From contig PUQB01000411.1 in NCBI GenBank assembly GCA_003024785.1, positions 43,623 to 107,622 on the forward strand: a stretch of DNA of 64,000 nucleotides. Reading direction: 5' to 3'. The notes under the pieces are model-generated. The model was not told the origin of the DNA, did not search any database, and worked only from the letters and a program-made list of their open reading frames with translations. The translations under genes and the position numbers were made by a program. Positions 13,991 through 38,943 of this stretch are shown one piece after another; the first letter of the stretch is position 1; every line of letters starts with the position of its first letter. This DNA is from Selaginella tamariscina. Lineage: Eukaryota; Streptophyta; Lycopodiopsida; Selaginellales; Selaginellaceae.

Positions 13991-13995
<5 letters not shown>

Positions 13996-17141: not shown

Positions 17142-17295
17142 TGTAGCAGTGGTCGCCACGACAACTCGTATTAAGAGTCTATCGGAATATGAAAGAACAG
17201 ATATGAAGTATAGATCAGACTTCAGAAGGTCGGGAAAGGTAAGGATGAAAGGTATGGCATGTGAACTGCAGATCCCATCACAGTAGAAATAAAGG
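17142..17295 (-). mobile_element. Putative solo LTR, distal end
   Basis: On the minus strand this piece ends ...CCACTGCTACA and shares the ACTGCAGATC...CAGTAGAAAT element with the minisatellite at 39,361-39,590. Together with 38,944-40,038 it would form one ~1.25-kb LTR (TGTTAG...GCTACA) interrupted by the giant transposon. I could not find a clean 5-bp target duplication around it. Confidence 0.45.
17292..17295. repeat. Target-site duplication AAGG, left
   Basis: AAGG directly precedes the left TIR and is repeated at 38,944-38,947 directly after the right TIR. One 4-bp match is modest evidence alone, but it coincides exactly with both TIR ends. Confidence 0.7.
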
Positions 17296-17322
17296 ATGCA
17301 AGTTGTAACTAAAATGGGCATG
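17296..17322 (+). repeat. Left terminal inverted repeat, copy 2
   Basis: Identical over 27 bp to the copy 1 TIR at 702-728 and inverse to 38,917-38,943. The M and R positions of ATGCAMGTTGTAACTAAART are A and A here, and C and G at the right end. Confidence 0.9.
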
Positions 17323-17797
17323 GCTATAGTCCATTTTCTAATAATTAGCAATTTTAGCTATTTAATTAGCATTTTCTAATATTAAAGGAATATTCTTTAG
17401 AATATATGTTTGAAAAGAATATTCTTTAGAATATTCTATTTTGTATTCTACCCTTTAATAAATTATAGCATTCATTGAACAAAAATTAATAACATTATAA
17501 AAGTAGAATGTATTAAATTATATAATATATTGCCTAATATAACAATTAAGGAAGAGCATAAGAGGTACATTATATAAATATTGATGTTGTTATTAAAATA
17601 TTAATATTTAAATATAACATTATTAATTAAAAATTTGTAGTAGTAATAATATATATATAAAATCCTATAATAATATAGTCAATCTTCCATATCTTTTTAA
17701 ATTTATATAGTTAAGTATACAATTTGGTACTATTATTAAAGAGTTTATAATAATTATGAATATTAAATATATGATATTTTATAATTTTGTAATTGCT

Positions 17798-20700
17798 TTA
17801 AGCTTCAGAAAACATACATTCCCTTGCAGTTTTGTTAATCGTGACTTTATCAACGCTTCTTGACATCCACCCATATCGAATGGATTTAACATTTATAAAA
17901 CATGCTGGGTCTTTTTGATTGGGAGACCATGTTTTCTCTAGGCATCCATTATATCTTTCGCTCTCCTTCTCGTGTCGCCTTTTTTGTGGTTTGAACCATG
18001 CAACCTTAACAATACTATTTTTTGTGATTACTTCAGGTGTGTCGATAATTTGACCCATCCAAATAGGCTGATTATATGACGCATCTGGAGTAATGAGAAC
18101 CATCATTAGTTTTTGAAGATCCTTGCAGCAATCAAAGTATGCTTTAGGTTTTTGGTTCCTTTGTCCAACAAAGTGTGGGGTTTGCACTTCCACATCACTA
18201 CTGGCTTCTATGTCGTCTGTGCTCAGTGATGTCATTTCAATCTCCTCTCGCCACCTTGTTTTAGGCCAGAAAGGGTGTTGCAATTCTGTACTTGTGACAG
18301 TAGGCCCTTCCAACTCTCGAACAACAGTCTCCCAATAGTTGACCACATGCTTATATAGTTCTGAGTAACCAGTTGCCTTATCAGAATTCTTTGGCATCGA
18401 TTTTTGAACCCATGCCACATATTTTTTGATGCCATCAATAATAACCTCTTGTTCCTTGAGCTGGGCACTCAATGGAATAGGGTCTGGTTGTCCTTCTGGG
18501 AGAAGTGGCTTTCCATCCTCTCCACTTTTGAAGAGCATTAAGCCCTCTTTCGGTAACCACTCCTGCTCTGATGGCCGTAACTTGTACTGCATAATAGGTA
18601 TACCATCTCGTATGGAGAAAAAGAATTGTAGCGGCACAAGGTGACCAACTAAAGAATCACTCCCTTCTTTTATATACTCCTTGAGAAATTTTTTGAAGTC
18701 TGGCACCTCAGTCACAAGCAAAGCACAACTTTTTTTGGAGATGCAATTTTCAAAAAGATTTCATATGCGGTAAGGTAAGTGCACTTGTCCTTTTTGTAGA
18801 GTTGGAGACCTTGCTGAAGAACGCATCAATATCTTCATGAGTGTGACCAACCATAAGGAAACTGAGCGTGATTGTTTCAAACACACCTTTGGCAACAAGC
18901 ATTGACAAGTATGCTAGCACATATCTAGAAAATAAAAGTAAGTATGAGCTTGAGAAACCCTTAAGTAAAATGATTTACCTATTTTTGTTCTCGCCTGCAC
19001 AATTATCCATCTGTAAAAGCAAATGAGAGGAAGCTTTATTTGATTTGAGGACACATGTACACTATTTTGAGCTAGATCCCTCCACTGAACCAAAACTCTC
19101 AACAGGGCCATTTTTTTTGTGCAGGCTGCTGACAATGCCTCTCATATTCCCAAGTAGCCTCAAGTGCAGACGTGTTCATGAGAGCATTATGTAAAGGTTG
19201 AAGGTGTTGTTTCTTCACTTTGAGATCACTGATAGGACGTGTCTATGAGTGGGCTTTAAGGTTTTCTGAAAACACATGGCAACGACCCAATAGTGAAATT
19301 GGAGTCGCTAGACCAATGTGGAAGTGAAAAAGTGTCCATATGACTCACAACCATGTCCATGTGTTAGCACACCTGTCAAGAAATCGGAAGTTTTCATGAC
19401 ATTTCCAAGGCACTTTGGTGTTGCAACGAGCTTTGGAATGCTGGTCTTTGAATGATCCATCTTGTCATGGATCAAGCACAGGTACTCTGATGGGCGTGAC
19501 ACAGAGCATGCGGTGTGCATAGTACTGAGACCGGCAAGTTTATTGTGCAATCATGTGGCCTCCATCTTCCTTTGAATGGTGATCTCCACCAAGGTTTTTG
19601 CACAAGCCTCTGCAGCCTTCAATGATGTACAAGTGTCACACTTGGAAAAGCTAGAGTGTTTTGCAATCTCCACATCCTTAAATGAGTATTCCATATTTGT
19701 TGAAGGTACCAGTGCAGATTGTTTAGCACCCATCAAACTGAGGCACTTGTTCACATTCACACAGTTTCAATTGAGTGTAGATTGAAGGCAAAACCTTGAG
19801 TTTTTCCCTGATCCCTGCATTTGTGGTTCGGCATTTGTGAGGCATCCTGTTGCATTTGCTTCCACAAAAGCCTTGAGTATCTCTATGGCTGCCATAATGT
19901 GAGAGCGGGTTTTGACCAGCGAGTTTCCCATATACAGGTTCATCCATCTAGCCACTCATCCCTCCGACGGTATAGAACGTGGTCTTTGGGATCCCGTATA
20001 TATGTACCAAGCTTTGAAGCAATGGCCACCTTATTAAATACCATGGATGTACTCTGATAACCTGTGTCCGAGGATTCCATCAATACACCCAGTTAGGAGC
20101 ATATACAAACTCATGCCTTTGCTTTTGGGTGAGCATACGAAAGACATGTCTACATTGGGTAATTTCATTCCGGTCTGCCATCTGACAACACTTCTTCTTG
20201 CAGCAGTCAATCGTGGAAATGCTCGTAACACTTTCGGAAGATGTAGGATCCATCTTTACCCTCTTGCTGAAACTTGCAGGGGAAGATCTACAACCATGAA
20301 TCGCCTTTTTCTTACAATAGGACCAATGCAAGGAACCTCTTCAAATATGAGTTGTTCTTCCGGTTGTTATTATTGAAATCCAACCCAGAATATGTTGAAC
20401 CATCTTGCCGTCTTAATTCAGATGTTCGCCACCTCACGAGGGATCCATGATGTCAAACTCTTCTGACACTGCTTCCATTGGATTTATAGCTGTGATGATG
20501 CCTCTTCCGACTCAATCTCACGAAAAAAGAGAATCACCTCATCCATCACAGCAGGCAAGCCATCATCTGGTAAACTCGTGCTACTATTTGTTTGTGACTC
20601 TGCATATTCTGTGTCAGCCTTGACTTCATCCAAATTCCACAATACAGGAGAACCCTCCTCAAATTCCATTCCCAGAACCTCAACATGCTTGAAATGGTGT

Positions 20701-20833
20701 TCACCCATACGTACACACAAGATCCTTGGGCAATATTGTGACATGATGCATTATTATCTCGAACTTCCACAGTTCCAGTGCCAACTATCTCGTTGTTCCG
20801 AAGAAGACATACTTTATCTCCAGTATTAAACAT
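17798..20833 (-). pseudogene. DUF7869-like transposon protein, copy 2
   Basis: Same gene as 1,196-4,306, high nucleotide identity, minus strand. The C-terminal half is open here to a stop at 17,798 and adds a tail ending NKTARECMFSEA that is frameshifted in copy 1. The domain core with GHTHEDID is cut by a small deletion near 18,760. Numerous single-base and short indels break the N-terminal half, and a larger deletion near 20,450 removes part of the segment around SDFVGVVVTEVSPNG. The 54-bp intron is retained (18,925-18,978). The frame change near 19,120 is shared with copy 1. This copy cannot encode the full protein as read. Confidence 0.7.
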
Positions 20834-20985
20834 ATTGTCCTGCACATAAATAATTGTATTATTTATGATATCTGTTTATGCAATATTTTAAGAAATCATA
20901 ATACGGTTACTTAATAATATGCATGTGCAATAATACATAATTATGTTTAGAGATAATATCTCATGTTTGATTAATACAACTGATG

Positions 20986-21840
20986 GGCGGGATTAATCCC
21001 GCCACGACTCCCTCCGACGAGGAACGGTCGGCGGGATTAATCCCGCCGACTCTCCGCGGAGGAATCGGCGGCGGGATTAATCCCGTCGACCTCTCCGATG
21101 GGAGAGTGGGCGGGATTAATCCCGCCGACTCCTCCGAAGGAGTAGTGTCGGCGGGATAAGTGAGTAGTGTCGGTGGGATTAATCCCGCCGTTGACTCTAC
21201 CCATCGGAGAGAGTCGACGGGATTAATCCCACTGCCGATTCCCTCCCACGAGGAAGAATTGGCGGATTAATCCCGCCGCCGGACTCCTTGTCTGAAAGAG
21301 GCAACGGGATTAATCCCGCTGATTCTTCCTCGCGGGAGGGAATCGGCAGCGGGATTAATCCCGCTGCAAAATCCCTCTGATGAGGACGAGGGGGCGCGGG
21401 ATTAATCCCGCCCACAAACTGACGAAGAGAATAGGCGGCGGGATTAATCCGGCCCACAACTCTGACGATGGGGAATAAGCGGCGGGATTAATCTCGCCAC
21501 AACTCTCTTCGAAATAATAATTTTAAAGAAATTCGGGATTAATCCTGCCCACAAATATTTAAAACAGGAAAGTGGTCGCAAGATTAATTCCGCCATCCTT
21601 CCTTCTTGCCTCCTAAAATGGTTGGCTAGATTAATCGTAGATAACTCTTTTCAATAAATTCAAGTATCTCTTTATCAGTTGAGAGAATTATCGGCGGGAT
21701 AATCCTGCCACTCTTCTTAAGAGGCGGAGAGCATTGCCCGGACTAATTCTGTCAGTAGCTATCAAAAGAGATGGTGGCGGGATTAATCCCGCCACCTCTT
21801 CAAAGAAGCAAAAAAAAAATGGCCGATTAATCCCGCCGCC
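20986..21840. repeat. Palindrome array 2
   Basis: About 18 copies of GGCGGGATTAATCCCGCC or one-to-three-base variants, spaced mostly 35-50 bp, with CCTCCGA-rich spacers as in array 1. It lies in the same position relative to the DUF7869-like gene (start 153 bp upstream of its ATG), so the array is an original part of the element. Confidence 0.9.
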
Positions 21841-22870
21841 CCAGCTAACCGAGAATATTAAGTTTAAAAGTATATTTAAACGGGATAAATCCCTAATAGA
21901 ATATATTGTAATCCAATGCATTCCTAAATCTCTAAATTCTAAAATTTAAGAGAGAATGTAAGAGAGTGAATCTTTATAATATATCTAAATTTGTTTATAA
22001 TACTTACTTGTAAATAGCACTGAAGGTGCCGTGCTTTCCTATAAACAATAGCGCACCCATTTAATGTCGCTCCTGAGCTGATCACTAAGAAAAAAAGAAA
22101 ATCTGAAGAGTGAAAATGAAGAAACCCTTGCCGGAGAAAGAACCAGATTTGAATTTGAGTGGGAAATTAAATGCATTTTCAAATTTACATGTCAGACTGA
22201 TAATACTTATGTCAGAAATTTGAAATTTTTGAAATAACAGAAAAGAAAATTTAATATGAGTTGAAACAAATAACCGACAGTCTGACATATATACTCTCCA
22301 ATTTCAATGGGTGTTTTAAAATTGCATTTAATGTCATTCAAGTGCTTCAAGCTGTTTAATATTACAAAATTTTATAATTATTTACATTCTTAATATTCAA
22401 GTATATATATTAAGTTTATATTATATATATATATACACTAATACAATAAATAAATTGATTAATATATTATGTATCATTTAAAATATATTCATAGTCTGTT
22501 TATTATTATTATTTTCTTAATTACTCGAGTAATTAATTTACATTTCCTACTATTAATGGGATATTCTTTATTATTTTCTTAATATTCAAAGAATATTCCA
22601 ATATTAAACCTGATTATCATAATAAATTAGTCTTATTCTTAATTATCTTAGTAATTATTCTACATTTGTATATATTAATGGGATTTTCTCAATTAATTTG
22701 TTATTATTTTAAGAATATTCTAGTGTTAAACCTTATTATCAATATTAATTAATATATTATTATTAAAACTATATATGGTTATATATTAGATAAAATCATA
22801 TATTATTATGTATAATTTAAAATATGTTCATAGTGTGTATATTAATATTATTTTCTTAATTATTCGATGT
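21841..22870. repeat. AT-rich module, second copy
   Basis: Homologous to 5,061-6,420 and to 27,534-28,570. It includes the TAAACGGGATAAATCCCTAA palindrome and one unit of the TATTAATGGGATATTC tandem repeat. No gene is visible. Confidence 0.65.
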
Positions 22871-23975
22871 TTGTTTTACACATATATATAAACACAATCA
22901 TAAATTTATATATACACGTGCACACGCATTAGAAGCACTTACAGAGACACATATGCACACACCTGCACATTGCCTAAACCAAACTTGAGAAATAATTATA
23001 TGTTACTTCTTTATTGAAAAACATCATGTTCAACGCATGTATGATCTATATGTACTCAGTGTGTGTGTATGTAACACATTGAATTTACACATGTAATAAT
23101 ATGTATGTCTGTGTGTATACACGTGTATATGTATATATGTGTACTAATATATATAATGTGTACGATTTTCATTTGTTAACACTCTATCTCTTCTCTCATA
23201 CATACACAGTGTCACCATACATAATCCCTTCTCTCATACATACACACCATGCATGATCATAATCCATAATATGTAGCTTGTCTCTTCTCTCATACATACA
23301 CACCATGCATGATCCATAATTTGTACTGATGTTACAATATTATGTAATATGTATAATGTATATTGTGTATAACACTCACTCCTCTCATACATAAACACTA
23401 TGCATGATCCATCCTAACCCTAAACCCTAAACCCTATGTAACACATTGAATTTACACATGTAATATGTATGTATGTCTGTGTGTATACACGTGTATGTAT
23501 ATGTGTGTACTAATATATCCAATGTGTATGAATTTAATTTGTTAACACTCTTTCTCTTCTCTCATACATACACACATGCATGATCCATGTACATATGTAC
23601 TGTCTCTCTTCTCTCAAACATACACACCATACATGATTCTGTACTCTGTCTCTCTAATATTAATATGTACTAATATGTATGTATGTCTATGTGTATAATA
23701 CTATGTGTGTATATATGTATCGTTGCACGTGAAACTTTAACACTCTCATGGACACACACGTGTTAAACCCTTGCATGATATTTATTCTTGGGTGTATATG
23801 ATACACCCACGCACACGCACACGCTGATAATATAATGAAAGAATATTCGTTTAGGTGAATCTATAATTTTTCTTTTTAGGATTTAAGTATATTCTTAGAA
23901 GGAATATTCAATTAGGGTTAATATATATTCTATTCCTTTTTAGGGTTTAAGTATATTCTTAGGGTTTGTAAGGCG
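22871..23975. repeat. Microsatellite/minisatellite block with telomere motif
   Basis: Tandem degenerate units built on CATACACACCATGCATGATCCATAATATGTA plus TATGTATGTCTGTGTGTATAC. A telomere run (CCCTAAA)3 lies at 23,413-23,436. Homologous to 6,420-7,500 and 28,570-29,570. No gene is visible. Confidence 0.7.
23413..23436 (+). repeat. Interstitial telomere motif (CCCTAAA)3
   Basis: CCTAACCCTAAACCCTAAACCCTA directly after GCATGATCCAT, the same context as the runs in copy 1 and at 29,101. Confidence 0.85.
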
Positions 23976-24142
23976 GTGAAATCTCCTTCTCTTTCTCACA
24001 CAAGTGAGATCTCTCTCTCTCTCTCTCACACACACACTCTTCTGAGTTTTTTATTTATTTTTATTCACATATATTTTATATGTGTGTATCTTAATAATAT
24101 AATTTAGATCTCTATCTCTCGCACACACACGCACACTCGTAT

Positions 24143-24188
<46 letters not shown>

Positions 24189-24194
24189 CTGTGT

Positions 24195-24237
<43 letters not shown>

Positions 24238-24911
24238 CCTTTTCTCTATTTTATTCTTCTCTATGTATATTATATATCCTTCTCTCTCTCTCTCTCTTTT
24301 TCTATTTATTTATCTATCTCTCGCACACACACACACACTCCTACATATATATATATACACATATATATATATATATTGTGTGTGTATCTGTATAATTTTA
24401 TTGATTTGTTAATTGTATCTCTCACACACACACGCACACTCCTGTATATATAATGTGTATGTGTGTGTTTGTTTATCTGTATGATTTTATTTGTTTCACA
24501 CACGCATACACACGATATACATATACACACATATATATATACCTATTTACATATATACATACATATATTATGTGTACCAGTATCTGTATAATTTTATTTA
24601 TTTATCTATTTCTCGCACACACACACACGCACACTCCTATATATATAAACACACACACACATATATATATAATTTTATTGATTTGTTAATTGTATCTCTC
24701 GCACACACACGCACACTCCTGTATATATATAGTGTGTGTGTTTTGTTTATCTATATGATTTTATTTGTTTCACACATGCATATACACGATATACATATAC
24801 ACACAATATATATACATATATTATGTGTACCAGTATCTATATAATTTTATTTATTTATCTATCTCTCACACACACACGCACACTCCTGTATATACATATA
24901 CATATACATAA

Positions 24912-24985
<74 letters not shown>

Positions 24986-25140
24986 CTGTATAATTTAATT
25001 TATTTAGCACACACATACGATATACATATACATATACATACGTGTGTGTATCAGTATAATTTTATCTGATTTGTCTATCTCTGGCACACACACGCACTCT
25101 CCTACACACACATATACATATATATAAATATATATGTGTG
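23976..25140. repeat. CA/TA/CT microsatellite block, ~278-bp higher-order unit
   Basis: Long (CA)n runs at about 24,147-24,179 and 24,198-24,230, a (TA)n/(TG)n compound at 24,914-24,982, and a recurring longer unit. The string ATTGATTTGTTAATTGTATCTCT occurs at about 24,399 and 24,677, giving a ~278-bp tandem period. The low-complexity open frames here are not genes. Confidence 0.8.
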
Positions 25141-25141
25141 T

Positions 25142-26310
25142 AGCGGCAAGATTAATCCCGTCGCTATATGGTTAGCCCCTCGGTAGCGGGATTAATCCCG
25201 CCGCCCTTCAGGCAGGCTATTCAGTTAGCCTCATGAGTGGCGGGATTAATCCCGCCGCCCATGAGGCTAATCGAATAACGACGGGATTAATCCCGCCGGA
25301 CGCCAATGCCCTGTGCCGAATCCGACAGGATTTATCCCGCTGCCATTGGCCTATCTGAAGGGCCTAGGTGGCGGGATTAATCCCGCCGGATTCTACGCTC
25401 CGGCGGAATAATCCCGCCGCATACGGATGCCCTGCATGGAATCGGGCGGAATTTATCCCGCGCCATTGGCCTGTCTGAAGGGCCTAGGCGGCGGGATTAA
25501 TCCCGCCCGATTCCGCGCAGGGCATTGGCGTCCGACGGGATTAATCCCGCCACCTGGGGCCCGAGTGAAGGGCTTGGACGGCGGGATTAATCCCGCTGCC
25601 CTGTGCGGAATCGGGCAGGATTAATCCCGCCACCTAGGGCCTGAGTGAAGGGCCTAGGCGGTGGGATTAATCCCTCCCAATTCCACGCAGGGCATTGGCG
25701 TCCGGCAGGATTAATTCCGCTGCCTAGGGTTCGAGTGAAGGGCCTGGGTGACAGGATTAATCCCGCTGTCCTGCACAGAATTGGGCGGGATTAATCCCGC
25801 TGCCAAAGGCCTATCTGAAGGGCCTAGGCGGCGGGATTAATCCTGCTCGATTGTGCGCAGGGCATTGGCGTCCGGCGGGATTAATCCCGCCACCTAGGGA
25901 CCGAGTGAAGGGCCTGGACGGCGGGATTAATCCCGTCGAGCCTTCAATGCCTGTTGGAGGGATGAATCCCGCCACCCTTCCCTTTTTTCTCCATTGGTGA
26001 GTCGGACCAATTTCGAACGTTTCTGTTTGAAACATAGAAGGTTTATAACATACCAATGGAGAGGACTAGGAAGGGTGGCGAGATTCATTTCACCATCCCT
26101 TACATGGTGGGCGAGATTAATCCCGCCCTCTTTCTGGAGTCACTAAAGGGGTGTGCCAAATAAATCCTGCCCAGTTCTCTCTGAGACCGAGAAGGGTGGT
26201 AGGATTAATTCCGCACTCCCGTTCAAGGCCTCCAGAAAGGTGGCGAGATTAATCCCGCCCACTCTTTCAGGAGGCATTGAAGGGGTGGCGAGATTAATCC
26301 CGCCGCACCT
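25142..26310. repeat. Palindrome array 3 (different spacers)
   Basis: More than 20 copies or variants of GGCGGGATTAATCCCGCC. From 25,142 to about 25,960 the spacers differ from the other arrays: they alternate GGCCTGTCTGAAGGGCCTAGGC and CGCAGGGCATTGGCGTCC, giving a higher-order repeat. From 26,050 to 26,310 a third spacer type occurs (TTTCAGGAGGCATTGAAGGGG) with the variant GGCGAGATTAATCCCGCC. Confidence 0.9.
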
Positions 26311-26880
26311 TCCATGTGAATATATATGTGTATTAGTATATATAAGTTGCATATCTCATTTTATTTACTTTTATCATCTTATCATAATATTTCGTGTAAA
26401 AGCTAGGAATCTATGTAAAACTGTTCAGAGCTCACATTTGTGGTGGTTTTTAAAACGAAATGTTATCTTTCTTTTGCACTAGCACAAAGGTGAGCTTTGG
26501 ACAGTTAATTCCGTCCACTTCTCTCTGTGGATTATTTTTGTATATTCGGGTTTATACAAGTGTGTGTGTGTTTTTATATGATTTGTATTCATAGTGTATT
26601 ATTTTGCAGAAGGACGATTTAATTAAACAAGGAGATCAAGTCATTAGTATGGAGTCGTCGTCAAATTCTGGGTAAGAATTAAAATAAAATCTGTTACACT
26701 CGGATATGTGCTTGAACTAATCATTTTCGTATTCAAATGTGGAATTGAGGTGACATTGAAGACAAGAGCAGGAAAAGAGATGGGCAGGGGGATTCTGGAA
26801 TCAACTTGGCCATATTTCAAATTAAACAAGAAGCGCATTAGAACAATCATGGTTGCTGTCAAACTAATCTCTGTCACATC
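26311..26880 (+). pseudogene. Duplicated 5' exons of the ParB-like cargo gene
   Basis: Homologous to 29,731-30,300. It carries the putative first ATG (26,649, MESSSNSG), a GT donor (GGTAAG) and the second exon with EMGRGILESTWPYFKLN (about 26,780-26,835). The acceptor CAG of the functional-looking copy is CAA here (TTCAAATG versus TTCAGATG). A palindrome array follows directly instead of the rest of the gene, so this is an orphan 5' fragment made by internal duplication of the element. Confidence 0.55.
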
Positions 26881-26904
26881 GCATGGCTCCCTCCGACGAG
26901 GAAG

Positions 26905-27533
26905 TAGTGGCGGGATTAATCCCACCGCGGGCTCCCTCCGACGAGGAAATAGTGGCGGGATTAATCTTGCCGCGGGCTCCCTCCAACGAGGAAGTACCAG
27001 TGGGATTAATCCCGCTGCCGGATCTTCCTCGTCTGTGAGAGTCGGCGGGATTAATCCGCCACAAATTCCTCCGACGAGGAAGAGGGGGAGGGATTAATCC
27101 CGCCCACAACACTAACGACGGAGAATAGGCGGCGGGATTAATCCTGCCCACAACTCTGACGACGGGGAATAAGCGGCAGGATTAATCCCACCTACAACTC
27201 TCTCCGAAACTATGATTTCAAAGAGATTCGGGATGAATTCTGCCCATAAATATTTAAAATAGGGAAGTAGTGGCGAGATTAATCCCGCCACCCCTTCTCT
27301 GCCTCCTAAAATGGTTGGCTAGATTAATCCCGTCGACAACTTTTTCTAATAAATTCAAGTAAATCATTATCAGTTAAGAGAGTTATCGGCGAGATTAATC
27401 TCGCCACTCTTTTTAAGAGGCGGAGAAGCATTGCCCGAACTAATTCTGCCATAGCTATGAAAGAGATAGTGGCGGGATTAATCCCGCCACCTCTTCAAAG
27501 AGGCGAAAAAAAATGACCGGATTAATCCCGCCG
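26905..27533. repeat. Palindrome array 4
   Basis: About 13 copies or variants of the palindrome with CTCCCTCCGACGAGGAA-like spacers, closely matching array 2. The final units match arrays 1 and 2 in order (GGTTGGC..., CTCTTTTTAAGAGGCGGAGAAGC, then CCGGATTAATCCCGCC). Confidence 0.9.
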
Positions 27534-28570
27534 CCCTGGCTAACCGAGAATATTAAGTTAAAGGTATATTTAAACGGGATAAATCCCTAACAGAATATAT
27601 TGTAATCCTAATGCATTCCTAAATCCCTAAATTCTAAAATTTAAGAGAGAATGTAAGAGAGTGAATCTTTATAATTATATCTAAATTTATTTATAATACT
27701 TACTTGTAAATAGCACTGAAGGCGCCGTGCTTTTCTATAAACAATAGCGCACCCAATTTAATGTCGCTCCTGAGCTGATCACTAAGAAGAAAAAGAAAAT
27801 CTGAAGAGTGAAAATGAAGAAACCCTTGTCGGAGAAAGAACCAGATTTGAATTTGAGTGGGAAATTAAATGTATTTTCAAATTTACATGTCAGACTGATA
27901 ATACTTATGTTAAAAATTCAAAATTTTTGAAATAATAAAAAAGAAAATTTAAGATGAGTTGAAACAAATAACTGACAGTCTGACATATATACTCTCCAAT
28001 TCCAATAAGTGTTTTAAAATTGCATTTAATGTTATTCAAGTGCTTCAAGCTGTTTAATATTACGAAATTTTTGTAATTATTCTACATTCTTAATATTCAA
28101 GTATATATTATTAAGTTTATATTATATATATATATACACTAATACAATAAATAAATTGATATATTATTATATATCATTTAAAATATATTCATAGTCTGTT
28201 TATTATTATTATTTTCTTAATTACTCGAGTAATTAATTTACATTTCCTACTATTAATGGGATATTCTTTGTTATTTTCTTAATATTCAAAGAATATTCCA
28301 ATATTAAACATGATTATCATAATTAAATTAGTCTTATTCTTAATTATCTCAATAATATTCTACATTTGTATATATTAATGGGATTTTCTCAATTAATTTA
28401 TTATTATTTTAAGAATATTCTAGTGTTAAACCTTATTATCAATATTAAATTAATATATTATTAAAACTATATATGGCTATATATTAGATAAATTATATAT
28501 TATTATGTATAATTTAAAATATGTTCATAGTGTGTATATTAATATTATTTTCTTAATTATTCGATGTTTG
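27534..28570. repeat. AT-rich module, third copy
   Basis: Follows array 4 exactly as 21,841-22,870 follows array 2, and aligns with it almost throughout. No gene is visible. Confidence 0.65.
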
Positions 28571-29574
28571 TTTTGCACATATTATATATAAACACAATCA
28601 TAAATTTATATATACAGGTGCACACACATTAGAAGCACTTACAGAGACACATATGCACACACACACATTGCCCTAAACTAAACTTGAGAAATTATATGTT
28701 GCTTCTTTATTGAAAAACATCATGTTCAACGCATGTATGATCTATATGTACTCAGTGTGTGTATATGTAACACATTAAATTTACATATGTAATATATGTC
28801 TGTGTGTATACACGTGTGTATGTATATATGTGTACTATGCAATGTGTACGATTTTCATTTGTTAACACTCTATCTCTTCTCTCATACATACATAGTGTCA
28901 CCATGCATAATCCCTTCTCTCATACATACACACCATGCATGATCATGATCCATAATATGTAGCCTGTCTCTTCTCTCATACATACACACCATGCATGATC
29001 CATAATATGTACTGATGTTACAATATTATGTAATATGTATAATGTATATTTGTGTATAACACTCACTCCTCTCATACATAAACACCATGCATGATCCATC
29101 CTAACCCTAAACCCTAAACCCTACATTGAATTTACACATGTAATATGTATGTATGTGTGTATACACGTGTGTATGTATATGTGTGTACTAATATATCCAA
29201 TGTGTATGAATTTAATTTGTTAACACTCTCACTCTTCTCTCATACATACACACCATGCATGATCCATGTAAATATGTACTGTCTCTCTCTTTAAACATAC
29301 ACACCATGCATAATCCATAATATGTATTGTCACTCTTCTCTCATACATACACACCATGCATAATCCATAATATGTATTGTCACTCTTCTCTCATACATAC
29401 ACACCATACATGATCCTGTACTCTGTGCTCTCTAATATTAATATGTACTAATATGTATGTATGTCTATGTGTATATATACTATGTGTGTATATATGTATC
29501 GCTGCACGTGAAACTTTAACACTCTCATGGACACACACGTGTTAAACTCGTGCATGATATTTATTCTTGGGGTG
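28571..29574. repeat. Microsatellite/minisatellite block, third copy
   Basis: Same CATACACACCATGCATGATCC repeats as 22,871-23,800, with a telomere run at 29,101-29,123. A local triplication of a ~60-bp unit (CATAATCCATAATATGTATTGTCACTC) is visible at 29,300-29,400. Ends where array 5 begins. Confidence 0.7.
29101..29123 (+). repeat. Interstitial telomere motif (CCCTAAA)3
   Basis: CTAACCCTAAACCCTAAACCCTA after GCATGATCCATC, equivalent to the run at 23,413. Confidence 0.85.
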
Positions 29575-29615
29575 TGCTAAATAAATCTTGCCAAGTTCTT
29601 CTGAGACCGAGAAGG

Positions 29616-29726
29616 GTGGCAAGATTAATTCCGCACTCCCATTCAAGGCCTCTAAAAAGGTGGCGAGATTAATCCCGCCCACTCTTTCAGGAGGCATTGA
29701 AGGGGGGCGAGATTAATCCCGCCGCA
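29616..29726. repeat. Palindrome array 5 (remnant)
   Basis: Three variant units (GGCAAGATTAATTCCGC, GGCGAGATTAATCCCGCC, GGCGAGATTAATCCCGCC) homologous to 26,195-26,310, immediately upstream of the cargo gene leader. Confidence 0.85.
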
Positions 29727-30059
29727 CCTTCCATGTGAATATATATGTGTATTAGTATATATAAGTTGCATATCTCATTTTATTTACTTTTATCATCTTA
29801 TCATAATATTTCGTGTAAAAGCTAGGAATCTATGTAAACTGTTCAGAGCTCAATTTGTGGTGGTTTTAAAACGAAATGTTATCTTTCTTTGCACTAGCAC
29901 AAAGGTGAGCTTTGGACAGTTAATTCCGTCCACTTCTCTGTGGATTATTTTTGTATATTCGGGTTTATACAAGTGTGTGGTGTTTTATATGATTTTTTAT
30001 TCATAGTGTATTATTTTGCAGAAGGACGATTTAATTAAACAAGGAGACGAGTCATTAGT

Positions 30060-33000
30060 ATGGAGTCGTCGTTAAATTCAGGATAAGAAATTAAAATAAA
30101 TTCTGTTATATCGGATATGTGCTTGAACTAATCATTTTTGTATTCAGATGTGGAATTGAGGTGACATTAAAGATGAGAGGAGGAGAAGAGATGGGCAGGG
30201 GGATTCTAGAATCAACTTGGCCATATTTCAAATTAAACGGGAAGCGCATTAGAACAACCATGGGTTGCTGTCAAACTAAACCTCTGTTACATCGCATGAA
30301 CAAGCAAAACAATGGAAAGTGAGTGTGCTAGTCAAGCATCCGAAAGCATGCTGTGAACCCAGATTAAATGATGCTCGACACATATCATGCCTCGTTCCAT
30401 CCAATGTCACGTTCTCGGATCAAGGTCGCCAGTTACAACATTAATTTCGGGTGGTTTGTCGACTTGTGGATAATAACGTTCACGTGTTCCTAATGATATT
30501 GACCGTGGAGTTCTTTCTTCAACTCAACGAAAGCCCATCCTATGGAGGGGATCCAACTGGATGTCTACTTCGAAGATCTTCAGACTCATCGAGTAGGTGT
30601 ATTCAGGAGATATTGCTTCACAATACAGAAAATCACAAGTGGAGCAATCGTCCCTCTTCACATTGAAGAAGAACACAGCGACATCATAAAGGAGATTGAG
30701 AGGGTGGCTTGGTCTCAGGTTCTTTACAGATCACGTTCAATTTGCTTAGCAAATTTCGGGAGCTGGAAGAGTGTGCCGAGAACATTAGAACAGCATCAAT
30801 CGGGGATCACACATGTTGATTCGGATCGTAGAAGAAAATCATTAGTCGTTTTGTCAGCTGCACCTGTGGCGTCCCATGCTGCAATAAGCCACAAGGAAAT
30901 GATGTTGGATGATAGGATTTACAGTGTAGGGTTAAGTATTGCAGCGTCAACCCAAACTTCAATTACAGGCCACTCAATCAGGAACGTGTAGCTGAGCTCA
31001 TGGAGAAGATGAAGGACGACAATTCTTACACCGTTCCACATAATGCTGTTTTGTGCGCATACTACGAAGAAACAAAGGCGCTGACAAAGTGTGGATCACA
31101 ACACCGGAACAAATGAGGAAGGTTCAGACGGAGAATAGAAAATCAGTTAAGTACTACATCATTAGTGGCCAGCACACAATAACGGCAGCCCAACGACTTC
31201 TCGACGAACACAACAAAGGAACGATGGCAACAAAACTTTCCGAGCATACCCGTGAGAAGCTGACGAAAAGATCGGCGTTTTTAGCGAAGCCGAATCTCAC
31301 AATCGAGCAGTACCATAAGTTATCGCGGAATGGGACGCTGCAGACACCAACCACTACAACAGCAAAATATGGGAGAAGTTCAAACACACGCGAGCCGTGT
31401 GGGAATCTCTTCAGCGACCACAAAGAGCTACCGCAGGGAATACACAATCTGCGGACTACCGGGTAAGCAAATTGTTTGGGCGGGATTTATCTCGCCGGTA
31501 TATTAATCTGTCTTTTTTTCAGAGAGTTGAAGAAATTGTAGCAGTTGATTTTGCCCAGGTGGGCGGGAAGGAAACATCCTTTTTGATGATGTTGATTTCT
31601 TGTCCCGAGGATAGGATCTTTGCCAAATGGTTGGGGATTATGGAATCCTTTGCAAAAGGAACACTGAAGAAGAAGCAGACAAGTGAAGTGGAGCCCTCAG
31701 AGAAGTCTGCAAAGAAACCCAGTAAGACGCCGAAGGCTAAGTCTGTTCAATCTATAAAGGATGTAGACAACGATTTCAAGCTCACATGGTTGAAGCCTTT
31801 AAATGGAACAACGATGGAGGAGATGGAAGTCTTGGCTGATTTGGTGATTGATGGCAAATTACAGATTAATAACAGCAGCCCCACCTCTCCTTTTCATCTC
31901 AAGGCAATGGAGTTGAAGACGGTCAGGCACTTCAAGGAGTGGTTGGGAATACACTGCCACAAACTGGGTTGGATTTCGGCTTCAACATACGAAGAGGTCA
32001 GCAAATATTTGCATGTGACAAATGATGATATGCTTGTCGAATGGGTGAATCAATCGGAAGATCTGGGCAAGAATCTATTGCACGCCAACGCCAAAAGGAG
32101 AACATTGCGATGACGCCTTCTCTTATGGCAGTCCTTCAGCAGCGGAGAACCGAGTTGAACCTTATAAAGGAGGATGCTACGAATCACGACAAGCCCTACA
32201 GATGTTTGTTGTTGGATTCGGAGACTTTATGGGGTACCATCACTGCTTGTAGGAAACCGTTTCAATTGTTCGTGATGGATCGGCGGGTGTCAAAAAATCC
32301 TTCGACAGACAGGACACTAGAGGATTTGGTGGAGAAACTTAGCCGTGCAAGCATGTACAAAGAAGGTATTTATTATTGAATTCATACTTGCACTCTTGAC
32401 TGATATCTACGTTTTCAGGTATTTATTTCTTGATTCTTGCTCATGTCACCGATACCTTTGCCTTCTCCTTTGCCAAGAGGAATAAACATCGTTGGACAGG
32501 ATTTTATATGAATGATGCTGATCCGAAGTGCATTGATTCGGTTGTTCACTTGGTTGTTAGGAATGCGCCAAACAGTTTCAAACTTCCAAATGACTGGCCA
32601 GGCATCTGTTTGCACTCCAACGGCCCTGAACCTCCATCCGATACACCGATAGTGAGAGTGACGTATTCGGCAATGTACGTTATCCAAACATCACAAGTCA
32701 AGCGGCACGGAGCATCGTCAACTTGATCAGGGGTCCTCACAGTGATGCGTGGGTTTTTGACTACTGCACTAGGGGGTCCGTCTTGAAGGAGTGTTACCTT
32801 CGGCATACATGTGTATTTGCCGTTGAAAAGGATAAGACCATGGTTGAGGACCTGAACAAGTGGATAGATAGGTTCTCAACTGATACCCCAACGAATCCAT
32901 AAAGGAGTATTTGAGAAAGTTCCCTCCCGATAAGTGCGATAGCTCTGAAGACAATCTGGTTCAATGTCGGAGTCTGAGGACGAACTTCAATCAGATATTA

Positions 33001-33164
33001 GACCGGAAGTTATCTCGAGGAGTACAGAACATTCGCACACTCCATTACCCATGGAAACATCAATAGAAGATACAGAAGATCTTGAACCATCTCACAAGCG
33101 GCTTAGACCTTCTTCGCCTCACTCAGAAGGTAATAGCGAAGAAGAATTGTTAATGAGTTCTTAG
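30060..33164 (+). pseudogene. ParB-like / methyltransferase-like cargo gene, copy A
   Basis: Candidate start at 30,060 (MESS...), exon 2 from about 30,149. Around 30,940-31,200 a ParB/sulfiredoxin-type domain is visible in pieces: VNPNFNYRP, then AELMEKMKDD, then ISGQHTITAAQRLLDEH, resembling the ParB NP-x-N-x-R and G-x-H-R motifs. A Lys-rich linker (31,660-31,745) and a helical region follow. The C-terminal part has VWVFDYCTRGSCLEG and CLVETD (32,750-32,835), like motif I and the acidic strand-2 motif of SAM-dependent DNA methyltransferases. I see no DPPY/DPPW catalytic motif. The tail is acidic. Introns are short (e.g. 31,462-31,521 and ~32,366-32,418). Several frame changes make it unlikely to be translated whole. 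The domain calls are inference from motifs. Confidence 0.55.
31462..31521 (+). other. Intron of ParB-like gene containing a palindrome copy
   Basis: Donor GGTAAGC after the codons for SADYR, acceptor TTTTTTTCAG before AGAGTTGAAG. The intron holds GGCGGGATTTATCTCGCC (31,479-31,496), a two-mismatch version of the array palindrome. Copy B has the same at 35,539-35,556. Confidence 0.65.
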
Positions 33165-33229
33165 AGTGACGAATAGTTGTAAATGAGTGTAACATAAGGC
33201 ATTTTTGTATATTTCGTTTATATTTGTAC

Positions 33230-34347
33230 AGAAAATAAATTCTCAAGGATTAATGAAGCTTTTAGTTCAAACATGGGTCACACATTAACAAGGTAAATAA
33301 TATACCTTGATAATTTTAAGGTCAGCTAATTATCATTTTGCAGATGTAATGAAACAATTGAGAACATGGATTTTCAGCATTGCATGAGGTAAGAGAGGGG
33401 TTTGGCGACAATTTCTTGTGCCACATGTCAGAATGACAGAGTTCATGCAGGAAATGGATAATAATGCAGCTCAAAACATCGTTACCATGGGGGCCACTTC
33501 AGTTTTTCATCATCATTTTTATTGGCTTCAGTTCCGAAATCAATTTCTTCAGCGCATGCAATATCTGAATCTTGTAAGGATGATGTACAATTAAATGATG
33601 AAGGGATAGGCAACGAGATAGTGCAACGGATAAATGTGAAAGGGAGCAAACAAGTGATTTGCAAAGTATTCAAGAGGCAACGCTATCCATGTTACTCATG
33701 GCCATATTGTGTTGTTGGATGTCAATGGTGTTCTGCTTCATCGACAAAGGCCCGAGGATAGGAAAAAAGAAATCAAACAAGGAGATTTCATTCCTTGTCA
33801 TGGTAAATTTCGATATGATATTATTTTTCGTCCAGGGTTGGATCGTCTCTTTCAAAAGCTTAAGGAGATGGGTGCGCTTGTGGGGATTTGGTCATGCATG
33901 CAGATTCATAACTTAACACCGCTGTTGAATTTGCTTAAGAAACATTGTAGTGTTGCAGAAGAGGTGATTCGTAAAGATTGGATTTTTGACCAGCGAATGT
34001 GTTATAAACCTCTCGAATTTCACAATATAAGAAAGGAAAGCAAGCCATACTTCTTCAAGAATGAAAGAATAATTGGGACTCATGGGGAGATCAGTCGCTT
34101 AAGGATAATGAAGAAATGCACATATGTTAGTAGTAGACGACTCTCCTCAGAAGGCTATGCTCAACCAAAACATTGCTTGTATTCATCCAATCACTTTCGA
34201 TCCATATTCGATATCATGGATGAGCTAGTGAACTACTTGGATACGTGCCTCAGAAAGAAGAATCTCGAAAATTTTTGTGAGCAGTATCCACCGTATCATA
34301 CATTTCCTGAAGCTTTTCTTTCTCGTGATTTGAATTTTATAAAATGA
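33230..34347 (+). pseudogene. FCP1/HAD-phosphatase-like cargo gene, copy A
   Basis: The 5' part appears split by short introns (GTAAATAATATACC...TTTTGCAG at about 33,291-33,343; GTAAGAGAGG...GACAG at about 33,389-33,440). The core is open at 33,709-34,130: LLDVNGVLLHR matches HAD motif I in the NLI-interacting-factor/FCP1 family (DxDGT type, with N for the second Asp as in some plant relatives). RPGLDRLFQKL and LVGIWSCMQ carry motif II (the S of WSC). Motif III (VVDDSP-like) is recoverable only in another frame near 34,130. Such proteins usually dephosphorylate phosphoserine or phosphothreonine; the Asp-to-Asn change leaves activity doubtful. A 5' frame change (near 33,700) and a 3' one (near 34,090) suggest decay. 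Confidence 0.55.
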
Positions 34348-34852
34348 AGGATAGCAACCGGGCGCTTTATAATATTATTCTTAAGGAACGTCATTTTTAG
34401 ATGAGCCTTTATGCAGACCTCTCTTATTACATCTTATGTATTAACAAGGATGGCAACTCCCAATTGCATTCGTGAGAGTGTTAAGTGGTGGCAACAACAT
34501 CAAGATATTGACCAAAATGATTTGATTAATCCGGAGAGTGATGATTTAGACAAAATGAAGATTTCTGTATGTTAGGAAGAAAGTATTTATAAAAAATTAA
34601 CATGTTGATAAGAAATGATTTCATTTGTAATTATGTTTGATAGTATTTCTTCATTATTGTAAACTATTTTTAGAATAATATGAATATTCTAAGATATTTT
34701 AGGAATATTCCTTACTAAGTAAGGTTATTGAAGGATTAATTAATTAATTAATTAATATTTAAGGCTTAATTACATATTAATTAAATGATTAATTAATAAT
34801 TAAAACTTAAGTATTAATTAGTAATTTATTTTATATTCCCATTTTCACGTAT
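34348..34852. other. AT-rich right subterminal region of the transposon, first copy
   Basis: Non-coding, homologous to 38,553-38,916. It contains TTAATTAATTAATTAATTAA and GGAATATTCC-type palindromes shortly before the TIR. Confidence 0.6.
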
Positions 34853-34879
34853 CATGCCCACTTTAGTTACAACGTGCAT
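34853..34879 (-). repeat. Internal right-type TIR
   Basis: Same 27-bp sequence and orientation as the true right end (38,917-38,943). It ends the first cargo copy; the second cargo copy begins at once, at a point matching about 30,820. The following bases are ATTG rather than AAGG. Confidence 0.85.
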
Positions 34880-37240
34880 ATTGGATCATAGAAGAAAATC
34901 CTCATCGTTTTGTCAGCTGCACCTGTGGCATCCCATGCTGCAATAAGCCACAAAAAATGATGTTGGATGATAAGATTTACAAGTGTAGGGTTAAGTATTG
35001 AGCGTCAGCCCAAACTTCAATTACATGCCACTCAACTAGGAATGTGTAGCTGAGCTCATGGAGAAGATGAAGGACGACAATTCTTACACGTTCCACATAA
35101 TGCTATTTTATGCGCATACTACGAGAGAAATAAAGGAGCTGACAAAGTGTGGATCACAACACCGGAACAAATGAGGAAGGTTCAGACACGGAGAATAGAA
35201 AATCAATCAAGTACTACATATTAGTGGCCAGCACACAATAACGGCAGCCCAACGACTTCTCGACGAACACAACAAAGGAACGATGGCAACAAAACTTTCC
35301 GAGCATACCCGTGAGAAGCTGACGAAAAGATCGGCGTTTTTAGCGAAGCCGAATCTCACAATCGAGCAGTACCATAAGTTATCGGTGGAATGGGACGCTG
35401 CAGACATCAACCACTACAACAGCAAAATATGGAAGAAGTTCAAACACACGCGAGCCGTGTGGGAATCTCTTCAGCGACCACAAAGAGCTACCGCAGGAAA
35501 TACACAATCTGCGGACTACCGGGTAAGCAAATTGTTTGGGCGGGATTTATCTCGCCGGTATATTAATCTGTCTTTTTTTCTCAGAGAGTTGAAGAAATTG
35601 TAGCAGTTGATTTTGCCCAGGTGGGGGAAGGAAACATCCTTTTTGATGATGTTGATTTCTTGTCCGAGGATAGGATCTTTGCCAAATGGTTGGGATTATG
35701 GAATCCTTTGCAAAAGGAACACTGAAGAAGAAGCAGACAAGTGAAGAGGAGCCCTCAGAGAAGTCTGCAAAGAAACCCAGTAAGACGCCGAAGTCTAAGT
35801 CTGTTCAATCTATAAAGGATGTAGACAACGATTTCAAGCTCACATGGTTGAAGCCTTTAAATGGAACAACGATGGAGGAGATGGAAGTCTTGGCTGATTT
35901 GGTGATTGATGGCAAATTACAGATTAACAACAGCAGCCCCACCTCTCCTTTTCATCTCAAGGCAATGGAGTTGAAGACGGTCAGGCACTTCAAGGAGTGG
36001 TTGGGAATACACTGCCACAAACTGGGTTGGATTTCGGCTTCAACATACGAAGAGGTCAGCAAATATTTGCATGTGACAAATGATGATATGCTTGTCGAAT
36101 GGGTGAATCAATCGGAAGATCTGGGCAAGAATCTATTGCACGCCAACGCCAAGAAGGAGAACATTGCGTGATGACGCCTTCTCTTATGGCAGTCCTTCAG
36201 CAGCGGAGAACCGAGTTGAACCTTATAAAGGAGGATGCTACGAATCAAGACAAGCCCTACAGATGTTTGTTGTTGGATTCGGAGACTTTATGGGGTACCA
36301 TCACTGCTTGTAGGAAACCGTTTCAATTGTTCGTGATGGATCGGTGGGTGTCAAAAAATCCTTCGGCAGACAGGACACTAGAGGATTTGGTGGAGAAACT
36401 TAGCCGTGCAAGCATGTACAAAGAAGGTATTATTATTGAATTCATACTTGCACTCTTGACTGATATCTATTTTTCAGGTATTTATTTCTTGATTCTTGCT
36501 CATGTCACCGATACCTTTGCCTTCTCCTTTGCCAAGAGGAATAAACATCGTTGGACAGGATTTTATATGAATGATGTTGATCCGAAGTGCATTGATTCGG
36601 TTGTTCACTTGGTTGTTAGGAATGCGCAAACAATTTCAAACTTCCAAATGACTGGACAGGCATCTGTTTGCACTCCAACGGCCTTAAACCTCCATCCGAT
36701 ACACCGATAGCTGAGCGTGACGTATTCGACAATGTACGTTATCCAAACATTACAAGTCAAGCGGCACGGAGCATCGTCAACTTGATCAGGGGTCCTCACA
36801 GTGATGTGTGGGTTTTTGACTACTGCACTAGGGGGTCCTGTCTTGAAGGAGTGTTACCTTCGGGATACATGTGTGTATGCCTTGTTGAAACGGATAAGAC
36901 CATGGTTGAGGACCTAAACAAGTGGATAGATAGGTTCTTCACTGACTTGAACCCCAACGAACCAACAAAGGAGTATTTGAGAAAAGTTAGTCCTCCCAAA
37001 TAAAGTGCGATAGTTCTGAAGACGAATCTAGTTCAATGTCGGAGTCTGAGGACGAACTTCAATCAGATATTAGACCGGAGAGTTACTATCTCGAGGAGTA
37101 CAGAACATTCACACATTCCATTACCCATGGAAACATCAATAGAAGATATGGAAAGATACACTGAACCATCTCACAAGCGGCTAGACCTTCTTCGCCTCAC
37201 TCAGAAGGTAATAGCGGAAGAAGAATTGTTAATGAGTTCT
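34880..37240 (+). pseudogene. ParB-like / methyltransferase-like cargo gene, copy B (5'-truncated)
   Basis: Tandem duplicate of about 30,820-33,164 with many small indels. The first exons and the leader are missing. The ParB-like domain N-terminus is broken, but the segment EWDAADINHYNSKIWKKFKH (35,387-35,446), the Lys-rich linker (35,720-35,800) and the methyltransferase-like end VWVFDYCTRGSCLEG...CLVETD (36,808-36,895) are open. The last stays in frame to a stop at 37,003 (KVSPPK), whereas copy A frameshifts there. The intron at ~36,426-36,477 is preserved. As the copy lacks a start it is presumably inactive. Confidence 0.55.
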
Positions 37241-37307
37241 TAGAGTGACGAATAGTTGTAAATGAGTGTAACTAAGGCATTTTTGTATATTTCATTATAT
37301 TTGTACA

Positions 37308-38552
37308 GAAAATAAATTCTCAAGGATTAATGAAGCTTTTAGTTCAAACATGGGTCACACATTAACAAGGTAAATAATATACCTTGATAATTTTAAGGTC
37401 ATAATTATCATTTTGCAGATGTAATGAAACAGTTGAGAAACATGGATTTTCAGCATTGGCCTTGAGGTAAGAGAGGGGTTTGGCAAAATTCTTATGCCAC
37501 ATGTCAGAATGACAGAGTTCATGCAGGAAAAAATACAATGCAGCTTCGAACATCATTACCATGGGGGCCACTTCAGTTTTTTCATCATCATTTCTATTGG
37601 CTTCAGTTCCGAAATTAATTTCTTCAGCGCATGCAATATCTGAATCTTGTAAGGATGATGTACAATTAAATGATAAAGGGATAGGCAACGAGATAGTGTC
37701 AACAGATAAATGTGAAAGGGAGCAAACAAGTGAGTTGCAAAGCATTCAAGAGGCAACGCTACCCATGTTACCATGGCCATATTCTGTTGTTGGATGTCAA
37801 TGGTGTTCTGCTTCATCGACAAAGGCCCGAGGATAGGAAAAATGAAATCAAACAAGGAGATTTCATTCTTTGTCATGGTAAATTTCGATATGATATTATT
37901 TTTCGTCCAGGGTTGGATCGTCTCTTTCAAAAGCTTAAGAGATGGGTGCTTGTGGGGATTTGGTCATGCATGCAGATTCACAACTTAACACCGCTATTGA
38001 ATTTGCTTAAGAAACATTGTAGTGTTGCAGAAAAGGTGATTCGTAAAGATTGATTTTTGACTAGCAAATGTATTATAAACCTCTCGAATTTCACAATATA
38101 AGAAAGGAAAGCAAGCCATACTTCTTCAAGAATGAAAGATTAATTGGGCTTCATGGGAGATCAGTCACTTAAGGATAATGAAGAATGCACATATCTTAGT
38201 GGTAAACGACTCTCCTCAGAAGGCTATGCTCAACCAAAACATTGCTTGTATTCATCCAATCACTTTCGATCCATATTCTGATACCGATATCATGGATGAG
38301 TTAGTGAACTACTTGGATACGTGCCTCAGAAAGAAGAATTTCGAAAACTTTTGTGAGCAGTATCCACCGTATCAAATATTTCCTAAAGCTTTTCTTTCTC
38401 GTGATTTTGAGTTTTATAAAATGAAGGATAGCAATTGGGCGCTTTATAATATTATTCTTAAGGAATCATTCTTTAGACGAGCCTTTATGCAGACCTGGTC
38501 TTATTACATCTTATGTATTAACAAGGATGGCAACTTTCAATTGCATTCGTGA
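37308..38552 (+). pseudogene. FCP1/HAD-phosphatase-like cargo gene, copy B
   Basis: Tandem duplicate of 33,230-34,347. LLDVNGVLLHR (37,788-37,820) and RPGLDRLFQKL are present; a 2-bp loss just after changes the LVGIWSC region. A frame change near 38,050 and another near 38,170 interrupt it. The C-terminal stretch MDELVNYLDTCLRKK (38,293-38,337) is open and runs on, without the stop seen in copy A, to HSWNALYN-like sequence ending at 38,552. Same functional inference as copy A, also probably dead. Confidence 0.5.
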
Positions 38553-38916
38553 GAGTGTAAGGTGGTGGCAACAACATCAAAATAGATTTGATTAATCTGG
38601 AGAGTGATGATTTAGACAAAATGAGAAGATTTCTCTTATAGGAAGAAAGTATTTATAAATAAATTAACATGTTGATAAGGAAATGATTTCATTTGTAATT
38701 ATGTTTGATAGTATTTCTTAATTATTAAACTATTTTTAAAATAATATGAAATTCTAAGATATTTAGGAATATTCCTTACTAAGTAAGGTTATTGAAGGAT
38801 TAATTAATTAATTAATTAATATTTAAGGCTTAATTACATATTAATTAAATGATTAATTAATAATTAAAACTTAAGTATTAATTAGTAATTTATTTTATAT
38901 TCCCATTTTCACGTAT
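38553..38916. other. AT-rich right subterminal region, second copy
   Basis: Homologous to 34,480-34,852, non-coding, with the same TTAATTAA runs and AATATTCC motifs before the terminal repeat. Confidence 0.6.
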
Positions 38917-38943
38917 CATGCCCACTTTAGTTACAACGTGCAT
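38917..38943 (-). repeat. Right terminal inverted repeat of the giant transposon
   Basis: Reverse complement reads ATGCACGTTGTAACTAAAGT followed by GGGCATG. It is followed by AAGG, which matches the four bases before the left TIR. Confidence 0.9.

Follow-up and report, generated by a model that had tools for sequence, protein, structure and literature searches.

Palindrome arrays as internal parts of a DUF7869 DNA transposon of Selaginella tamariscina and as candidate binding sites of a regulator

Introduction

In Arabidopsis, VANC21 is reported to bind tandem motifs in noncoding regions, with motifs that differ among the families of VANDAL transposons (PMC5735166), and the VANDAL/VANC motif arrays are described as expanding and contracting (PMC5735166, PMC10398659). 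CACTA (En/Spm) elements are described with family-specific motif arrays near their ends, which are bound by TNPA (PMC2613891), and a review table gives Sola elements as occurring in plants, including Physcomitrella (PMC9033089). Here we analyse a stretch of 64,000 nucleotides from Selaginella tamariscina (assembly GCA_003024785.1, contig PUQB01000411.1, positions 43,623 to 107,622 of the forward strand), hereafter the window and numbered from its first letter. It holds a DNA transposon with a gene of the DUF7869 family (gene 1), a second predicted gene (gene 2) and arrays of an 18-bp palindrome, which a sequence-only reading of the window had taken for the structural signature of one mobile element. 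We find that an abundant DNA transposon with a DUF7869 gene includes the arrays as integral, paired and internal parts, and the arrays are best read as a multi-site protein array.

Results

The palindrome and its two arrays

The palindrome GGCGGGATTAATCCCGCC is present in 18 exact copies in the window and in none of 100 shuffles. With up to five mismatches allowed, 72 non-overlapping sites were found, and the term perfect, as used in the sequence-only reading, applies to only 18 of them. Five blocks had been named, with well over 50 units in total, and this number was confirmed by the 70 sites that lie within them (13, 16, 25, 13 and 3). The remaining two, at 31479 and 35539, have two mismatches, are copies of each other and lie inside gene 2. 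Sites in the arrays are mostly spaced by 44-46 bp, and perfect dyads span 18-28 bp.

All five blocks hold sites; however, self-comparison shows that they are copies of two arrays and do not represent five separate ones. Blocks 4,461-5,060, 20,986-21,840 and 26,905-27,533 are copies of array I, which contains 13 sites in a truncated copy of the transposon (4461..5057), 16 sites in the full copy (20986..21837) and 13 sites in a duplicated part (26909..27532). Blocks 25,142-26,310 and 29,616-29,726 are copies of array II, with 25 sites before gene 2 (25145..26304) and three sites in a duplicated end (29618..29723); the segments 26,148-26,885 and 29,569-30,298 are 94% identical.

In the whole assembly (300,702,823 bases, 300.7 Mb, 1,391 contigs), the exact palindrome has 27,128 sites, compared with one site for a control palindrome with a swapped centre (ATTAAT to ATATAT) and none for the reversed pattern. 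The genomic context was judged on the first 100 listed sites, all of them on contig C1, which is a sample of one contig and not of the genome. All 100 lie in element-derived DNA with BLAST support: 95 belong to the main family (25 in locus e, 16 in k, 12 in each of a and d, nine in h, seven in each of f1 and f2, four in b and three in c) and five to two diverged relatives (four in i and one in kup). The arrays thus behave as a signature of one mobile element, and no array unassociated with it was found among these sites. Full copies contain 7-25 exact sites (six full copies), from which, together with the genome count, the family would amount to roughly 2,000 element equivalents. A palindrome search of a viral collection returned one contig (L001) with a single site, which was judged unrelated.

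The element that carries the arrays

Comparison of the C1 copies gave constant element ends, the left one ATGCAAGTTGTAACTAAAATGGGCATGG and the right one inverted, which form terminal inverted repeats of the type ATGCA(A/T)GTT(G/A)TAACTAAAATGG... versus the inverted ATGCACGTTGTAACTAAAGTGGGCATG. Six C1 copies are 13.6-14.8 kb long, and copy d, whose stretch includes 2,500 N, measures 11.9 kb. Target duplications of 4 bp match in four of the seven C1 copies with both ends read (ACAT in d, TTAT in h, and ATAA in f1 and f2, which are one segmental duplicate and are both counted) and do not match in the other three (a, e and k). They also match in the window copy (AAGG) and in a deletion derivative on contig C633 (AATT). 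By its inverted repeats and short target duplications, the element fits a cut-and-paste type DNA transposon of the terminal inverted repeat order.

Elements of the Sola superfamily produce 4-bp target site duplications, and the duplication length of the present element would suggest the Sola group; palindrome arrays are not known to us from that superfamily. Membership of CACTA (En/Spm) was rejected, since the element shows ATGCA ends and 4-bp duplications instead of CACTA termini and 3-bp duplications, no tnp2-type transposase was found, DUF7869 being the sole family over or near the cut-off in gene 1, and the arrays are not subterminal but at least 3.7 kb from the ends.

In the window, the full copy extends over 17296..38943 (+ strand), as delimited by both end repeats, the AAGG flanks and self-BLAST, and is enlarged by internal duplications of part of array I, part of array II and the end of gene 2. 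Its left terminal inverted repeat, ATGCAAGTTGTAACTAAAATGGGCATGG, lies at 17296..17323 (+ strand) with the start common to the sampled copies, and the right one, ...TTTAGTTACAACGTGCAT, at 38915..38943 (- strand), with a second, internal copy at 34851-34879. The AAGG duplications occupy 17292..17295 on the left and 38944-38947 on the right. A truncated second copy at 702..7501 (+ strand) contains the left end, gene 1, array I and part of the intergenic region. Elsewhere, a 19.7-kb segment with a whole transposon copy and its flanks occurs twice in a row with 98% identity (C1:895001-945000, L022-L026).

Position of the arrays between two predicted divergent genes

Measured from the left end, array I runs from about 3.7-3.8 kb to near 4.4-4.7 kb, and about 5.0-5.2 kb separate the end of array II from the right end of the element, in agreement with the sequence-only reading, which had called the arrays internal and not subterminal. 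They flank an AT-rich intergenic stretch of 3.0-3.6 kb (GC 0.27), one array before each of the two predicted, divergent genes: array I adjoins the DUF7869 gene and array II adjoins gene 2 in the fetched copies, both genes being oriented away from their array. Six copies contain 170 sites with up to two mismatches, 165 of them from array I to array II, none in gene 1 and five at one putatively intronic place at the putative start of an intron of gene 2 (copy d was divided only into gene 1 and the rest). The number of sites varies among copies, from 13 to 18 in array I and from 13 to 31 in array II. Telomere-type AAACCCT repeats are found in each of the three transposon intergenic stretches of the window (6651-6768, 7200-7230, 23420-23440 and 29100-29125).

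The location directly before both genes could also be explained by landing pads for a host transcription factor, in which the element amplified a host-read motif to drive its two genes and encodes no binder of its own. The inverted pair GGATTA/TAATCC may resemble homeodomain-type sites, which would favour this explanation. However, none of the 100 listed sites is outside element-derived DNA, and we consider host landing pads unlikely.

Nine stretches were expected to hold array I from family-search matches, and seven hold it, with 10-20 sites. Of the other two, L036 covers intergenic sequence of the element past the array and L035 lies in the 3.4-kb deletion derivative, the only derivative found without arrays (C633:257139-260526, AATT duplications). 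The deletion junction of this derivative occurs once genome-wide with up to two mismatches; therefore, the derivative has not multiplied. Such a result would be in line with palindromes that are sites for a transposase or an accessory protein needed in cis for excision, like the TNPA sites near the ends of En/Spm, although a single junction may also stem from a deletion after insertion, and it fits a loss of this kind and a need for arrays alike. Palindromes on both sides of the gene in a distant DUF7869 locus (L002, below) and the family-specific CACTA motif arrays reported to be bound by an element-encoded protein (PMC2613891) also agree with a role in excision; however, the arrays are about 3.7 kb and about 5 kb from the ends that they would pair. 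We regard this role as unlikely.

Gene 1 encodes a DUF7869 protein

In the truncated copy, gene 1 was located at 1425..4306 (- strand) by Pfam match and reading frames, with exon 1 at 4306-2371, an intron at 2370-2317 and exon 2 at 2316-1425; splice sites were placed by eye, as was a frame break in exon 1. The match to PF25273 (DUF7869) has an E value of 2e-25 in exon 2 and 3.8e-05 in exon 1. In the full copy, gene 1 shows frame breaks and approximate outer limits (17798..20835, - strand; tblastn, the queries being the exons from the truncated copy), and includes an open reading frame (ORF) of 307 amino acids at 17798-18721. Across six copies, codon changes were 78 amino-acid versus 65 silent in one reading frame and 23 versus 16, with three stops, in a second frame that extends past the gene, with crude omega values of 0.39 and 0.45, respectively. 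Amino-acid changes fall below expectation, and by these crude values gene 1 is under purifying selection.

Among named organisms, the closest relatives of gene 1 belong to Riccia sorocarpa, a liverwort, with unnamed matches ranking higher. Named DUF7869 matches fall in a liverwort, in molluscs, in a coral, in a lancelet and in other animals. Across 29 of 96 DUF7869 matches, D-x-M-D, DN..NKN and GHTHED-D show little or no variation, and these motifs resemble the DDE/D site of RNase H-like transposases. A sequence search of solved structures (PDB) with DUF7869 gave no match. The search of the genome for the DUF7869 family reported 300 matches from 4,249 first-look candidates, 150 of them scored; with the Riccia protein as query, 45 of 5,059 candidates were scored, each 35% identical. 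Scans of viral collections (alignments; P0096) gave no DUF7869 locus.

Gene 2

Gene 2 is predicted at 30060..34879 (+ strand) in the full copy; the first ATG, at 30060, was chosen by eye, an earlier duplicated start lies at 26649, and the reading is broken into several frames. A tandem duplicate of part of gene 2 and the right end follows at 34883..38943 (+ strand), 94.7% identical to 30823-34880. Near the 3' end, the ORF 33709-34347 shows a NIF/FCP1-type phosphatase domain (E 1.7e-08 in the window, below the cut-off in copy e), and no convincing Pfam match besides it was found in the gene 2 ORFs. Such a domain is, to our knowledge, unusual in a DNA transposon and is perhaps a captured host domain. 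A comparison of gene 2 with solved structures returned two designed proteins only, with E values of about 1.

The sequence-only reading had spoken of a ParB-like protein as a possible binder. This was not upheld: Pfam gave no ParB match for gene 2, and apart from the phosphatase domain no homologue was found. A reading of gene 2 by eye as ParB plus methyltransferase was likewise dropped, with no Pfam support and no homologue. The lone site of gene 2 (31479..31496, two mismatches) starts 16 bp downstream of GTAAGC, a putative splice donor placed by eye, and shows the same sequence in all five copies printed (e, f1, h, k and a).

Conservation of the palindrome

Diversity (pi) was compared in the proximal array parts with the same unit order. 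In array I (nine sequences) it was 0.0636 in the palindrome and 0.0938 in the spacer, and in array II (eight sequences) 0.0235 and 0.0401, respectively, the array II palindromes being also below the downstream DNA (0.0317). This is modest evidence for constraint. Whole-element alignments of six copies gave non-CpG divergences of 0.023 in palindrome and 0.088 in spacer for array I, and 0.0165 and 0.056 for array II, a 3-4-fold contrast that may be inflated by misaligned repeat units; the same measure gave 0.010 for gene 1 and 0.053 for the intergenic stretch. Among units of equal length, identity was 0.86-0.89 in the palindrome, by whose match the sites were picked, and 0.34-0.65 in the spacer. 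Within 297 sites, four positions (A, T, A, T) of the core GATTAATC show 1-5 mismatches, the other four core positions 11-25 and the outer ten 13-53.

Where they can be aligned, the two diverged relatives on C1 share 70-81% (i) and 65-80% (kup) identity with the element. Their spacers are entirely different and the palindrome is kept, with 19 and 17 sites at up to six mismatches, four and one of them exact, respectively, at spacings of 28-29 or 43-47 bp and with gaps of 350-501 bp. This retention amid unrelated spacers is the strongest evidence of conservation, and it reaches further back in time. That the palindrome is kept while spacers turn over is established in part.

Neutral minisatellites homogenised by unequal exchange, whose palindrome was kept only through spread from a common source, would account for the variation in unit number between copies, for the internal array duplications of the window copy and for array I palindromes more variable than the DNA downstream. 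However, spacers diverge more than the palindrome within the same arrays, the diverged relatives keep it in different spacers, and the lone site of gene 2 is present in all five copies printed. Neutral turnover is, in our judgement, quite improbable.

Dyad symmetry could also reflect a structural array, with palindromes acting as hairpins or cruciforms; the perfect dyads of up to 28 bp and a spacer dyad symmetry slightly above shuffles (5.84 versus 5.14 pairs) would agree with it. In 456 sites, complementary double changes across the dyad numbered 26 versus 17.9 expected, and the position pair 3-14 alone is clearly raised (12 versus 4.5; at most 12 in 2000 permutations). Because there is little compensatory change, recognition by a protein is favoured over hairpins, which we hold to be very improbable, and the symmetry of the palindrome suggests that the binder is probably dimeric.

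CpG content and transitions

The observed/expected CpG ratio is 1.2 in array I, 1.0 in array II, 0.71 in the intergenic stretch, 0.78 in gene 2 and 0.36 in gene 1; the high values of the arrays are partly due to the two CpGs in the motif. Across six copies, the excess of CpG over other transitions is 2.6-fold both in gene 1 and in the intergenic stretch, and 2.2-fold in gene 2. In array I they are not raised (0.035 versus 0.0375 at other sites), with a 1.35-fold value within its palindromes, a pattern that would fit reduced methylation or constraint.

Distant DUF7869 loci

Three contigs with DUF7869 matches (L002, L003 and L004) were found in a scan of 84,980 prokaryote species genomes, and they are presumably eukaryotic contaminants. 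Around the DUF7869 gene of L002 there is a palindrome family of its own, TTTAGCTCGA-N-TCGAGCTAAA, with eight members, four upstream and four downstream, a number reached in none of 30 shuffles; the motif has 10 sites at up to six mismatches compared with a mean of 0.19 in 200 shuffles. Since its motif includes G and C and flanks the gene on either side, this family is convincing. A palindrome unrelated to that of the present element would fit co-evolution with an own protein better than host landing pads. A clear own palindrome family was found at one of the three distant loci. In L004, an 89-bp perfect tandem repeat with two long palindromes lies beyond the DUF7869-like gene, near the contig end (L004:4972-5149).

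Other features of the window

The region of the full transposon copy is bracketed by an inverted repeat of about 6 kb (8926-14995 and 43481-49426; 86-91% identical in pieces), whose left arm contains a short cysteine-rich reading frame (10680-10920), metallothionein-like by eye. Just outside, there is a direct repeat (8510-8665/49423-49580, 95%; 8694-8922/54411-54584, 70%), and its right copy holds an inserted long terminal repeat (LTR) retrotransposon (49640-54401) with LTRs of about 200 bp that are 94% identical, and with gag, RNase H and integrase zinc-finger domains.

Discussion

We propose that the palindrome is the site of a sequence-specific, probably dimeric DNA-binding protein, and that tens of sites at 44-46-bp intervals would recruit this protein densely over both promoters. 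Less surely, the binder may be encoded by the element itself, by the DUF7869 gene 1 or the orphan gene 2, and may keep the element promoters active or shield them from silencing, as VANC at VANDAL arrays. The number of motifs might then serve as an address for 'self' copies, with motif and protein changing together between families. A binding array for a regulator, probably element-encoded and nearest in logic to the VANC targets of VANDAL, is given a probability of about 0.47.

Several results weigh against this proposal. The sequence-only reading had suggested that selection acts on the palindrome itself, to be refuted by equal divergence in palindrome and spacer. The palindrome does vary less than the spacers and is kept in relatives, so divergence is not equal; however, the difference is only about 1.5-1.7-fold where the alignment is unambiguous, and circular shifts of the mask equalled the observed contrast in 19 of 500 and 49 of 500 cases. 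Furthermore, array I palindromes, at 0.0636, evolve no more slowly than the roughly 240 bp downstream of them (0.0483). Array II has a 2.0-fold excess of CpG transitions, which reaches 4.2-fold in its palindromes alone (0.033 versus 0.0078) and speaks against low methylation there. Among the distant loci, L003 has two palindrome sites, no more than chance, and L004 has five, a number reached in none of 30 shuffles, four of them within a single tandem repeat that lies 1.5 kb past the DUF7869 match. Two of 10 control stretches (L019 and L030, with AT-rich motifs) also beat all 30 shuffles, some control stretches themselves containing element ends or diverged arrays, and a test with even-length palindromes was weaker (four in L002, five in L004 and three in L003, compared with at most three, five and five in shuffles). 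As for the regulator itself, two protein searches found no homologue of gene 2, and a host transcription factor would account for much of the evidence too.

If true, a regulator bound at these arrays would mean that plant transposons have a second way of assembling large docking arrays for proteins on their own promoters, and the clear target of 18 bp would be amenable to gel-shift. A feature would then also be linked to DUF7869, a family for which nothing was found in the full text of open-licence papers. In the same type of text, the sole match of GGGATTAATCCC was a paper on invadopodia, with no description of the element, and a search for moss transposon palindromes returned no description of it among the matches listed. 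A wider idea concerns DUF7869 transposons as a group, which would be widespread and little described. Every family would have a long palindrome of its own, densely arrayed near the genes, and a dimeric protein encoded by the element would read it as an anti-silencing self-address. This would be an independent palindromic counterpart of VANC, with about 27,000 exact sites here in one 300-Mb genome. We consider this generalisation rather unlikely.

Among described systems, the Sola superfamily resembles the element in its 4-bp target duplications and in its occurrence in plants. CACTA (En/Spm) elements are alike in their numerous copies of a motif that is specific to the element and varies from family to family, and are unlike in that their sites are subterminal; the soybean element described has CACTA at its ends, makes a 3-bp duplication and encodes a tnp2 domain (PMC2613891). 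The present element shows internal arrays, ATGCA ends and 4-bp duplications. In the ORFs of genes 1 and 2 that were compared with Pfam, no match suggested a VANC-type protein, most of gene 2 matching nothing at all. With VANDAL/VANC there are differences as well: the element carries a DUF7869 gene and makes 4-bp target duplications, and the VANC motifs are described as 8-9 bp long, non-palindromic and in one orientation, compared with the 18-bp palindrome found here. Nevertheless, the arrays lie in noncoding regions, as VANC targets are reported to do, and both systems combine tandem, gene-proximal arrays of a short motif in a plant DNA transposon with a motif specific to the family and an array size that changes.

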